From Jiella marina (GTDB taxonomy: Bacteria; Pseudomonadota; Alphaproteobacteria; Rhizobiales; Rhizobiaceae), in the NCBI RefSeq assembly GCF_024359545.1, contig NZ_JAKQZG010000004.1, forward strand, positions 186,001 through 250,000: 64,000 bases of DNA, written 5' to 3'. Position 1 is the stretch's first letter; each line of letters begins with the position of its first letter. A program made the translations under genes and the position numbers. Of this stretch, positions 20,315 to 57,647 are shown one piece after another. The notes under the pieces are model-generated. The model had not been told where the DNA came from, searched no databases, and saw nothing but the letters and a program-made list of their open reading frames with translations.

Positions 20315-20332
20315 CCCTGACGATCGTCAGGG
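20315..20332. promoter_or_regulatory. 18-bp perfect palindrome upstream of fbpA
   Basis: CCCTGACGATCGTCAGGG is a perfect palindrome about 40 bp before the fbpA start. It could be an operator in the promoter or leader. The TGA/TCA halves are spaced by 6, not the 9 expected of a RirA iron-responsive box, so the regulator is unknown. Confidence 0.5.
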
Positions 20333-20388
20333 CGAAATGTCAGGGAGAAGCCCTTAGCACCGAAGAAATCATCAGTAAAATCAATAGG

Positions 20389-20403
20389 TTAGAAGTATTC
20401 TAA
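20389..20403. promoter_or_regulatory. candidate Irr/ICE-type operator
   Basis: TTAGAAGTATTCTAA is a perfect inverted repeat (6-bp arms, 3-nt spacer) about 115 bp upstream of fbpA in an AT-rich stretch. It closely resembles the iron-control element bound by Irr in Rhizobiales (TTTAGAA-N3-TTCTAAA type, recalled from the literature). Its location upstream of a ferric-iron importer supports that reading. Confidence 0.6.
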
Positions 20404-20588
20404 ATTGGAACGCTTCCAAGGTGGTCGAACGTCCAGCAGTTTCAGCTTGTTAGGGCCCACCCCGACCGATGCGCATCGAGAGATAACGCGACCGTTCACG
20501 TCAATTTTTACCGGCGGGGAATGCCGATCGGATTGGGGGAAGTTCCCATCGACATTGTGCGCTGCACGCCCAAAGCTGATGAAATGTG

Positions 20589-20608
20589 TTTCACGGTCAA
20601 TCGTGAAA
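20589..20608. promoter_or_regulatory. inverted repeat upstream of the methyltransferase
   Basis: TTTCACGGTCAATCGTGAAA has perfect 7-bp arms around a 6-nt spacer, about 127 bp before the methyltransferase start in an AT-rich region. It is a plausible operator of unknown regulator. The rest of the 20276-20734 gap holds no gene I can support, only a 12-bp palindrome at 20467-20478. Confidence 0.4.
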
Positions 20609-20734
20609 TCGTTTGAATATCATGGGCTAAGAAAAAAGTTTCAGCAAAAACAGCTGTCAAGCCTCGATATAGGGGTTTCTGCACATAACTCGTAAGGGCA
20701 CTTTCATTTTCAACGAGACAGGAGAGGACGAGCC

Positions 20735-21391
20735 TTGTCTGCATCGGACAACACCATTCATGCCTCGCACGAACTAGCCGGCGATTCCGAAAAACTCGAA
20801 AAGTACTATGCGGATTGGGCGGCGAAGTACGACGACGACGTTCGCAACGAGGAGTATGGTGGCCCAAGGGCCATCGCCAGCATCGCCCTGATGGTGGCCG
20901 ACAGCTTCCTCGGCAAGCCGGCCAAGTCCATCCGCGTCCTTGACGCGGGCTGCGGAACGGGACTGGCGGGCATCGAACTGAAGATGAAGGGTTTCGACGT
21001 CATCGACGGTTTCGACCTGTCGCAGGAAATGTGCGACATCGCCGAAAAGACCGAGGCCTATGCCGAACTCGCGGGCAATGTGGACCTCAACCGGGACGAC
21101 AAGCCGGTCTTCAACCGGACCTATGATCTGATCGTCTGCTGCGGCGTGTTCACGCTCGGCCATGTGGAGCCGGAAGCGCTGACCCGTCTGGCGGAATATC
21201 TCTCGGACGACGGTTACATGGTCGTCTCGACGCGCAACAGCTACCTCGAAGACACCGATTACGAGGATGTCGGCAAGCTGATCGAGAAGCAGGGCACGCT
21301 GCATCTCGTGACCAAGCTTCCGGACGCACGCTACATCGCCGAGGAAGACGCGCATTACTGGGTCTATGGCAAGGGCCGCAAGGCCTCCTGA
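20735..21391 (+). CDS. class I SAM-dependent methyltransferase
   Basis: A 218-residue methyltransferase starting at TTG (MSASDNTIHA), supported by GGAGAGG 7 nt upstream. SAM-binding motif I is VLDAGCGTGLAGIELKMKGF (residues about 67-86), followed by the acidic loop DGFDLSQEMCDIAE and motif II near YDLIVCCGVFTLGHV. The protein resembles small-molecule methyltransferases of the Williams-Beuren type. The substrate is unknown. It ends in a bidirectional terminator shared with the convergent kinase gene. Confidence 0.88.
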   Translation: MSASDNTIHASHELAGDSEKLEKYYADWAAKYDDDVRNEEYGGPRAIASIALMVADSFLGKPAKSIRVLDAGCGTGLAGIELKMKGFDVIDGFDLSQEMCDIAEKTEAYAELAGNVDLNRDDKPVFNRTYDLIVCCGVFTLGHVEPEALTRLAEYLSDDGYMVVSTRNSYLEDTDYEDVGKLIEKQGTLHLVTKLPDARYIAEEDAHYWVYGKGRKAS

Positions 21392-55626: not shown

Positions 55627-56637
55627 ATGGCGGAGGCAGATGTGACCAACCGAAAGCCGCAGGACGAAGTCCAGGCGCTTTTCGAACCGCAGGGTGTGAG
55701 GGAAGAGCAGACGCCCCGGACCGACGCGGAAGGGCATGGCGAGCGCCGACCGGCCGCTGCGCCTGCGAGTCCCGAAAGCGCTCCGCCGCAAGCGGAAGCA
55801 GCGCTGGCCCCAATCGAAGAACCGGTCGTCTCGCCGCATCCCTATGCGACGAAGCTGCGGGAGCAGCGGCTCGCCAAGGAGGCGAGCGGGCATGCGCGGC
55901 GCGACACGCTCCTCTATCTCGACGGCGTCAACAAGAGTTTCGACGGCTTCAAGGCGATCAACAAACTCTCGCTCGTCGTCGCCAGGGGCGAGATGCGCGC
56001 GATCATCGGGCCGAACGGCGCCGGCAAGACCACGATGATGGACATCATCACCGGCAAGACCCGGCCGGATTCCGGCGAGGTCTTCTTCAATGGCGACGTG
56101 GATCTCACCCATCACGACGAGGCGGCCATCGCCTCCATGGGCATCGGCCGGAAGTTCCAGAAACCGACGGTCTTCGAAAGCCATACGGTGGAGGACAATA
56201 TCCGCCTGTCGCTCGCCGGACCGCGCTCCGTCCTGGAAGCGCTGTTCCACCGCAAGGATCAGGCCGAGCGCGACCGGATCGACGCGATCCTGGAGACGAC
56301 GCGGCTGACGGAAAAGCGCAAGCTCCTGGCGGCGAGCCTCAGCCACGGCCAGAAGCAATGGCTGGAGATCGGCATGCTGCTCGCCCAGGACCCGGAGCTT
56401 CTCCTGGTCGACGAGCCCGTCGCCGGCATGACCGATGCCGAGACGGAAGAGACCGCGCGGCTTCTGCGCGAGATCGCCCGGACCCGCTCCGTCGTCGTCG
56501 TCGAACACGACATGAGCTTCGTGCGCGAACTCGGCGTGAAGGTCACCTGCCTGCACGAAGGCTCCGTCCTCGCGGAAGGGCCGCTCGATCAGGTCTCCGC
56601 CGATCCGAAGGTGATCGAGGTGTATCTGGGGCGTTAG
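55627..56637 (+). CDS. urtD: urea ABC transporter ATP-binding protein UrtD, with N-terminal extension
   Basis: A 336-residue ATPase. Residues from about 94 (TLLYLDGVNKSFDGFKAINK) form a normal LivG-type ABC domain with Walker A GPNGAGKTT (128-136), the SHGQKQWLEIGMLLA signature and Walker B LLLVDEPVAGM. The first 90 residues are an extension rich in Ala, Pro, Glu and Gln that typical UrtD (about 250 residues) lacks and that is probably disordered. The ATG at 55627 lies 5 bp after the urtC stop. The extension could be real or an artefact of a later true start, but no good internal start with a Shine-Dalgarno was found. Confidence 0.93.
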   Translation: MAEADVTNRKPQDEVQALFEPQGVREEQTPRTDAEGHGERRPAAAPASPESAPPQAEAALAPIEEPVVSPHPYATKLREQRLAKEASGHARRDTLLYLDGVNKSFDGFKAINKLSLVVARGEMRAIIGPNGAGKTTMMDIITGKTRPDSGEVFFNGDVDLTHHDEAAIASMGIGRKFQKPTVFESHTVEDNIRLSLAGPRSVLEALFHRKDQAERDRIDAILETTRLTEKRKLLAASLSHGQKQWLEIGMLLAQDPELLLVDEPVAGMTDAETEETARLLREIARTRSVVVVEHDMSFVRELGVKVTCLHEGSVLAEGPLDQVSADPKVIEVYLGR

Positions 56638-56888
56638 GCTGCCCAGTCTGTCAAATTACTTGCCCAATTTTCATCGTAGAGATAGTAAGTGCCCCATGAC
56701 TCAAATATCTTTGGCTTTGAACCCGGTTTGGCTGATTGAATGTTAGATAATATGTTCCGCCACACGTTTTTTGATAGGTGTTGCTGGTCGTGCCAGAGTA
56801 GAAGTTCCCATTTTGTGATTTGGGTTCGGCCCGTTGACGCGAATTCCTCGGCGCGTGCTGTCATTAAGTCGATAAAACGCTTGTCCAT
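56634..56888 (-). CDS. AT-rich orphan gene inserted inside the urt operon, opposite strand
   Basis: An 84-residue protein (MDKRFIDLMTARAEEFASTG...). TTGGAGAAAGAA before the ATG gives a good ribosome binding site. It is read against the operon, fills the urtD-urtE gap, and its TAA stop overlaps the urtD TAG. The interval 56640-56950 is visibly AT-rich (well below the surrounding high GC) and uses AT-ending codons, which suggests recent transfer. It is rich in Trp (five), Asn and Lys. The central ITKWELLLWHDQQHLSKNVW looks helical. I do not recognise a family. The urtE Shine-Dalgarno lies right after it. Confidence 0.7.
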   Translation of the reverse strand: MDKRFIDLMTARAEEFASTGRTQITKWELLLWHDQQHLSKNVWRNILSNIQSAKPGSKPKIFESWGTYYLYDENWASNLTDWAA

Positions 56889-56951
56889 TTCTTTCTCCAA
56901 ATCCGATTTTTGTGCAAGAAATAGGGTGAAGAAAAAATATGGAGTGTCAAC

Positions 56952-57647
56952 GTGCTGACAGTCTCCAATGTCGATCTCTATTACGGTGCGGCGCAGGCGC
57001 TCCGGGACGTCTCGCTGGGGGCCGAGAAGGGCCAGATCACCTGCGTTCTCGGTCGCAACGGCGTGGGCAAGACCTCGCTCTTGCGGGCGATCGTCGGCCA
57101 GCAGCCGATCAAGCGCGGCGAGATCGTGCTTGACGGGCACGTGCTCGGGCGCGAGGCGCCCTACAATCGCGCCCGGCGTGGGATCGGCTTCGTGCCCCAG
57201 GGCCGCGAGATCTTTCCGCTCCTGACGGTCAAGGAAAACCTCCAGACCGGCTATGCGCCTCTGAAAGTGGCGGATCGCTCGATCCCCGATCATGTCTTCG
57301 AATTGTTTCCGGTCCTGAAGGACATGCTGTCGCGGCGCGGTGGCGACCTGTCGGGCGGCCAGCAGCAGCAATTGGCGATCGGCCGGGCACTGGTGACGCG
57401 CCCGCAACTCCTCGTCCTCGACGAGCCGACCGAAGGCATCCAGCCCTCGATCATCAAGGACATCGGCCGCGCGATCCGCTTCCTGAAGGATCAGTCCGGC
57501 CTCGCGATCCTGCTCGTCGAGCAATACCTCGATTTCTGTCGGGAACTCGCCGACAAGGTCTATGTCATGGACCGTGGCGAGATCGTCTTCGACGGCCCGG
57601 CCGAAGGGCTCGACGACCCGGCGGTGCGCAAGCACCTGACGGTCTGA
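56952..57647 (+). CDS. urtE: urea ABC transporter ATP-binding protein UrtE
   Basis: A 231-residue LivF-type ATPase starting at GTG with GGAG 7 nt upstream. Walker A is GRNGVGKTS (residues about 34-42), the signature is LSGGQQQQLAIGRALV and Walker B is LLVLDEPTEGI. The normal UrtE start MLTVSNVDLYYGAAQAL is intact, so the insertion before it did not disrupt the coding sequence. It is the last gene of the operon and is convergent with the FGGY kinase gene, with only 16 bp between stops. Confidence 0.97.
   Translation: MLTVSNVDLYYGAAQALRDVSLGAEKGQITCVLGRNGVGKTSLLRAIVGQQPIKRGEIVLDGHVLGREAPYNRARRGIGFVPQGREIFPLLTVKENLQTGYAPLKVADRSIPDHVFELFPVLKDMLSRRGGDLSGGQQQQLAIGRALVTRPQLLVLDEPTEGIQPSIIKDIGRAIRFLKDQSGLAILLVEQYLDFCRELADKVYVMDRGEIVFDGPAEGLDDPAVRKHLTV

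Follow-up and report, generated by a model that had tools for sequence, protein, structure and literature searches.

Within the 64,000-nt stretch of Jiella marina DNA analysed here (hereafter the window) lies a urea transport operon, whose products UrtA, UrtB, UrtC, UrtD and UrtE all score above the NCBIfam cut-offs (378.8 bits against 304.1 for UrtD and 338.4 against 285.8 for UrtE). The genes urtD (55627–56637, plus strand, stop codon TAG at 56635–56637) and urtE (56952–57647, plus strand, GTG start) are separated by a spacer of 314 bp (56638–56951) with 43.6% GC compared with 64.2% for the whole window, and the AT-rich island that fills the whole junction extends from 56634 to 56951. On the minus strand it holds a gene of 84 codons plus TAA (56634–56888; protein P0001), with a GC content of 0.455 against 0.642 for the window. 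The Shine-Dalgarno sequence GGAG of this gene (56895–56898) can be read directly 6 nt 5′ of its ATG, and its stop codon, TTA on the plus strand at 56634–56636, overlaps the stop of urtD. The Shine-Dalgarno sequence of urtE, likewise GGAG (56941–56944, plus strand), is situated within the island, 7 nt 5′ of the GTG and again directly readable. The original prediction had described clearly AT-rich junction DNA, an 84-residue minus-strand ORF with a good ribosome-binding site, an overlap of its stop with that of urtD and a urtE Shine-Dalgarno sequence directly following, all of which is borne out by the sequence; the five tryptophans that it had counted in the protein are in fact six.

The lowest GC content among 6,370 segments of 300 bp in the window falls in this island. 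GC values below 50% over 300 bp recur in the window only at 20321–20881, which is flanked by ORFs that we read as an ABC-transporter substrate-binding protein and a methyltransferase. The island occurs once in its own genome, the sole other match being 23 bp long (E 0.4), and was rejected as a REP- or MITE-like repeat on account of this single copy. No second gene was found in it, the other ORFs overlapping the P0001 gene and having no support, and neither a consensus sigma-70 promoter nor a terminator was found for P0001. Dinucleotide shuffling of the island produced a chance ORF of at least 84 aa in 122 of 3,000 cases, and ORF length by itself is weak evidence for a gene; the ORF counts as a gene because of its homology, not its length. 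Across the edge between the island and urtE, upstream of the 84-aa gene, lies the inverted repeat TGTCA-N6-TGACA (56945–56960), a possible, if weak, candidate operator. It has one site in the window and none in 100 shuffles, a rarity that is overstated because the repeat was spotted after the fact.

When the urtD–urtE junction was compared in related genomes, as had been proposed, the gene was absent from all nine congeners examined, and among 61 related genomes searched with the P0001 protein the own genome was the only match. Both results support the earlier view that a housekeeping operon has received a foreign, AT-rich gene. UrtE loci were found in all ten genomes of the genus, the own genome included, and the nine congeners yield ten junctions, G003 giving two loci with an identical junction. 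The congener spacers measure 70–797 bp at 62–69% GC, and ten junctions from other genera (38 genomes searched, 18 of them without a match at the limit used) measure 4–44 bp in six cases and about 220–315 bp in four, all lengths being measured between the urtD and urtE matches, the former ending three residues too soon in L009, L012 and L050 and the latter beginning one residue late in L053. The 'usual short junction' of the original prediction therefore fails within the genus. Inverted repeats of several kinds with arms of at least 18 nt are present in eight of the nine distinct congener spacers, the exception being the spacer of 70 bp. A part of the G007 spacer, used as a query, gave 42–139 matches in eight of the nine congeners, 2 in G002 and 15 in the own genome, counts that may be low, as part of the first-look candidates was left unscored. 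From these spacers and repeats it follows that the junction often carries extra DNA in this genus, and the site seems to take up insertions repeatedly. Among the genus members examined, no AT-rich DNA other than the window gene was seen at this site. A conserved operon is thus found to have a junction whose content varies by species.

The edges of the flanking genes differ as well. In all nine congeners urtD ends in CGA TGA and urtE starts with ATG, compared with CGT TAG and GTG in the window, and from this difference the island appears to provide the urtD stop codon, the urtE Shine-Dalgarno sequence and the first base of the urtE start codon. In G007, the congener nearest by UrtE, a palindromic repeat occurs twice in the 797-bp spacer (L003 704–1500), and the stretch separating the copies contains part of a second urtE start (MLTVSNVNFYYGAAQALRDV...); repeat and urtE start look as though they were duplicated as a unit. 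The type of palindromic repeat found at the urtD–urtE junction (CGTCATTCTCGGGCC..., CCTCATCCTGAGG..., CGTCATCCCGG...) differs between species of the genus (L003–L012).

The P0001 protein has no match in Pfam, PHROGs, NCBIfam, PADLOC or the PDB sequences, so the statement that it matches nothing was correct as far as these libraries are concerned; it was wrong in that remote relatives exist. Six of them were reached by chained searches, originating from plasmid records of Komagataeibacter, Escherichia/Enterobacter, Allochromatium and Cupriavidus and from two proteobacterial genomes. The entry point was a single weak row (E 0.05) of a tblastn search with P0001 against plasmids, which led to P0002 on pGXY060 of Komagataeibacter. 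With P0002 we found P0003 on Enterobacter and Escherichia plasmids (E 2e-3) and P0004 on Allochromatium pALVIN01 (E 1e-3). P0005 then turned up with a profile of these four proteins (E 4.7e-11; a single genome out of 385 in the class), and P0006 with a profile lacking P0001 (E 3.5e-13; a single genome out of 350 in the class to which G1100 belongs, by our reading the Gammaproteobacteria). A search with P0006 recovered P0002 (E 3e-4) and added a further relative, encoded on the Cupriavidus sp. P-10 replicon pMTS1, which is 1.6 Mb in size (E 2e-5); this seventh member is in none of the profiles.

No further convincing member was present in 394 genomes of the family, 398 of the phylum and 347 of the order, samples that overlap. 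Several rows were dismissed as noise, lying in frames of 282–889 aa or crossing a stop: five in the 394 family genomes (E 0.0025–0.009), two in the 385 class genomes (E 0.002 and 0.004), one in the 398 phylum genomes (E 0.0025, once more in G159) and two in the 350 genomes of the class of G1100 (E 9e-4 and 0.007). The P0003 gene occurs in 2 of 5,426 complete E. coli genomes, plasmid-borne both times; the plasmid linkage of the family is partly due to our having searched a plasmid collection. Members are 82–102 aa long, and six of the seven genes lie below the GC content of their surroundings, the Cupriavidus gene, at 0.575 in 0.587, not being AT-rich.

That P0001 itself is related to these proteins was examined with profiles from which it had been left out. 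An HMM built from P0002–P0006 gave P0001 38.0 bits (E 1.5e-9), compared with 12.2 for the best of 20,000 shuffles, and when it was run on the 867 stop-to-stop frames in the window with a minimum length of 40 aa, the P0001 frame came first with 34.1 bits, the next reaching 1.8. As controls, P0002 was additionally left out, having been found through P0001 (34.1 bits against 14.6 for shuffles), and then also P0005, whose discovery profile had included P0001 (37.4 against 14.6). The HMM alignment spans residues 1–51 of P0001, and it is the N-terminal core that is conserved in the family; beyond residue 51 the likeness consists of two short strands around a turn, seen by eye with P0001 added to the profile. 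As judged by these comparisons, P0001 is a member of a rare protein family absent from the libraries searched. Orphan genes commonly go unexplained; the remote relatives turn this one into a member of a small, uncatalogued and partly plasmid-borne family.

Searches with the other members pointed to no described family either. No Pfam family exceeded its cut-off for any of the seven, the sub-cut-off rows being PhoR for P0002 (E 0.083), DUF6986 for P0004 (E 0.041) and Pox_D5 (PF03288) for the Cupriavidus member (18.4 bits against a cut-off of 21.4, E 0.003); the other six lack a Pox_D5 match. The NCBIfam and PADLOC scans covered P0001–P0005, and PADLOC returned no match for these five. P0001, P0003 and P0004 drew no PHROG row, and P0002, P0005 and P0006 reached no better than E 0.11–0.45; phage records searched with P0001, P0002, P0003, P0005 and P0006 reached at best E 0.8 (a terminase) and 0.6 (an endolysin). 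IMG/VR yielded no confirmed relative, its sole row (L037, 14 residues) falling in an unrelated 132-aa ORF. A family profile search of solved structures was not significant (best E 0.37), and the titles and abstract openings of the literature found do not treat the family. Phage morons sit among phage genes and have their own promoter and terminator. P0001 is placed between urtD and urtE, has no match to a phage family and shows neither a consensus promoter nor a terminator, and the term 'moron-type' used at first, if meant in the phage sense, is not supported.

The relatives reside in varied surroundings, and no partner gene is common to the loci examined. P0002 is encoded on the 4.3-kb MobQ plasmid pGXY060, with a ParE toxin gene upstream of it, and P0003 on 11–14-kb plasmids with a recombinase, to which the ET650 plasmid adds a VapE-domain gene. 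P0004 has hypothetical genes as neighbours, and a VapC pair is situated some 2.2 kb from it. P0005 is divergent from dapF (Pfam DAP_epimerase). P0006 has lexA (Pfam LexA_DNA_bind) on one side and, on the other, a gene that matches SulA and that we read as imuA, and is codirectional with both; it is accompanied by a 132-aa ORF and by a codirectional, cysteine-rich 119-aa ORF (L043 1049–1408) that overlaps the end of the P0006 gene and has no Pfam match. In L057 783–4172 the gene of the Cupriavidus member is preceded by a 648-aa ORF, for which kinase and helix-hairpin-helix models gave sub-cut-off matches, and overlaps by 4 nt the next ORF, of 296 aa and without a Pfam match; these pMTS1 genes all run in one direction and possibly form an operon, which would hint at function. 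For two of the relatives, at L022 3995–4279 and L024 4001–4270, the annotated CDS begins after the homologous start codon, and therefore both appear to be annotated too short.

A single-sequence structure model of P0001, of low confidence (mean pLDDT 62.7, pTM 0.45), contains helices at residues 3–19, 26–36 and 40–51, short strands at 23–24 and 69–70 and a doubtful, low-confidence helix at 75–83. At this confidence, its three helices and short strands come in the order expected for a winged helix (H1-S1-H2-H3-S2-S3). Residues 24–51 probably constitute a helix-turn-helix, and the relatives suggest a beta hairpin near residues 58–72 that is absent from the model. Model and hairpin-like tail of the relatives taken together give a winged-helix order, with which the sub-cut-off Pox_D5 match of the Cupriavidus member would agree, Pox_D5 being a winged helix of primase-helicases. 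Foldseek with the P0001 model returned nothing significant, the best row being the repressor Rex (E 5.3). The product is predicted to be, probably, a compact winged-helix DNA-binding protein. That it acts as a small DNA-binding regulator, with its own promoter as the probable target, is a prediction that we hold at about even odds.

The foremost rival to a functional acquired gene is a silent, decaying passenger: foreign DNA that happened to recombine into a junction tolerant of it, with an ORF that is still intact but has no function in its host. The presence of the gene in one species only among the genomes searched, the missing recognisable promoter and the unrelated repeats that fill the same place in most congeners would all fit such a passenger, but the 84 codons are intact and preceded by a good Shine-Dalgarno sequence, and the N-terminal core of the family is conserved; we regard this explanation as somewhat unlikely. 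The neighbourhoods of two relatives, just downstream of a ParE gene in Komagataeibacter and near a VapC pair in Allochromatium, raise the thought of a plasmid stability module of the toxin-antitoxin type, from which the window gene would be an orphan or a partner left stranded on the chromosome. The window gene has no partner, however, and the lack of a common neighbour among the loci, together with the empty PADLOC result for five members, makes such an origin improbable.

It is also conceivable that the ORF is a by-product and that the island acts as RNA, either as a putative antisense RNA to urtD, which the original prediction had raised, or as a putative regulatory leader of urtE. The stops converge and overlap and no terminator was found before urtD, which would allow such an RNA, but Rfam is empty up to E 1, neither strand folds better than its shuffles do (z 0.51 and 0.80) and the ORF has protein homologues, so that we rate this role as decidedly improbable. 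An integron-type gene cassette at a secondary site was considered because of the GTTAGGC at the island edge. Integron core sites have the consensus GTTRRRY and are cut after the G, and an attC site follows the cassette ORF. The left edge (56633–56639) fits this consensus, and a single AT-rich ORF of cassette size lies next to it; given the stop codon, though, we estimate that such a match arises by chance about once in 16 cases. Only weak inverted repeats and by eye no attC-like pair of core sites are seen, the island folds no better than shuffles, and none of ten matches to the integron integrase family TIGR02249 in the own genome exceeds the cut-off. A cassette origin is accordingly the most far-fetched of these alternatives.

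We thus favour a horizontally acquired winged-helix DNA-binding gene at a tolerant junction, a reading that, taken as a whole, might equally well turn out right or wrong; horizontal acquisition of the gene as such is very likely. A small AT-rich gene would have been gained horizontally and have come to occupy the urtD–urtE junction by an insertion that left it facing against the operon, with urtD and urtE both still readable. The gene belongs to the rare, uncatalogued family described above, whose proteins of 82–102 aa are encoded on proteobacterial plasmids or next to housekeeping genes, and may itself have come from a plasmid. The protein would fold as helix 1, short strand, helix 2, turn, helix 3 and hairpin wing and may regulate its own promoter or other DNA, and the gene would persist because the junction tolerates insertions, most congeners having palindromic repeats there. 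A bolder extension is an undescribed winged-helix family that moves, with neither a transposase nor a recognisable recombination site, between plasmids and permissive housekeeping junctions throughout the Proteobacteria (urtD–urtE, beside dapF, lexA–imuA), P0001 using the conserved urt operon as its host and regulating itself from the opposite strand; we consider this extension unlikely.

Among known systems, the winged-helix repressors of the DeoR/Rex type have a similar helix order, and the RRDL motif in the third helix, a feature of these repressors, has a counterpart in the third helix of the Allochromatium relative P0004. In contrast to them, P0001 has no sensor domain, and no significant sequence or structure match links the two. 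Compared with the Pox_D5 domain of helicase-primases, the family proteins are small and stand-alone, and one of the seven matches it, below the cut-off. Within the family, the hypothetical protein WP_148268695.1 of Komagataeibacter medellinensis (pGXY060) is identical to P0001 in 19 of 62 residues, ungapped from the start methionine, and its gene is likewise AT-rich in a GC-rich replicon, although the protein has 102 aa and is encoded on a plasmid beside a ParE toxin gene instead of in a chromosomal operon. The hypothetical protein encoded on the small Escherichia/Enterobacter plasmids pL73-3, ET650 unnamed4 and Enterobacter P4, whose gene differs from that of P0001 in being plasmid-borne and in having other neighbours (recombinase and VapE-domain genes), resembles P0001 in the N-terminal core KRF...G...I..WELxxW...VW.
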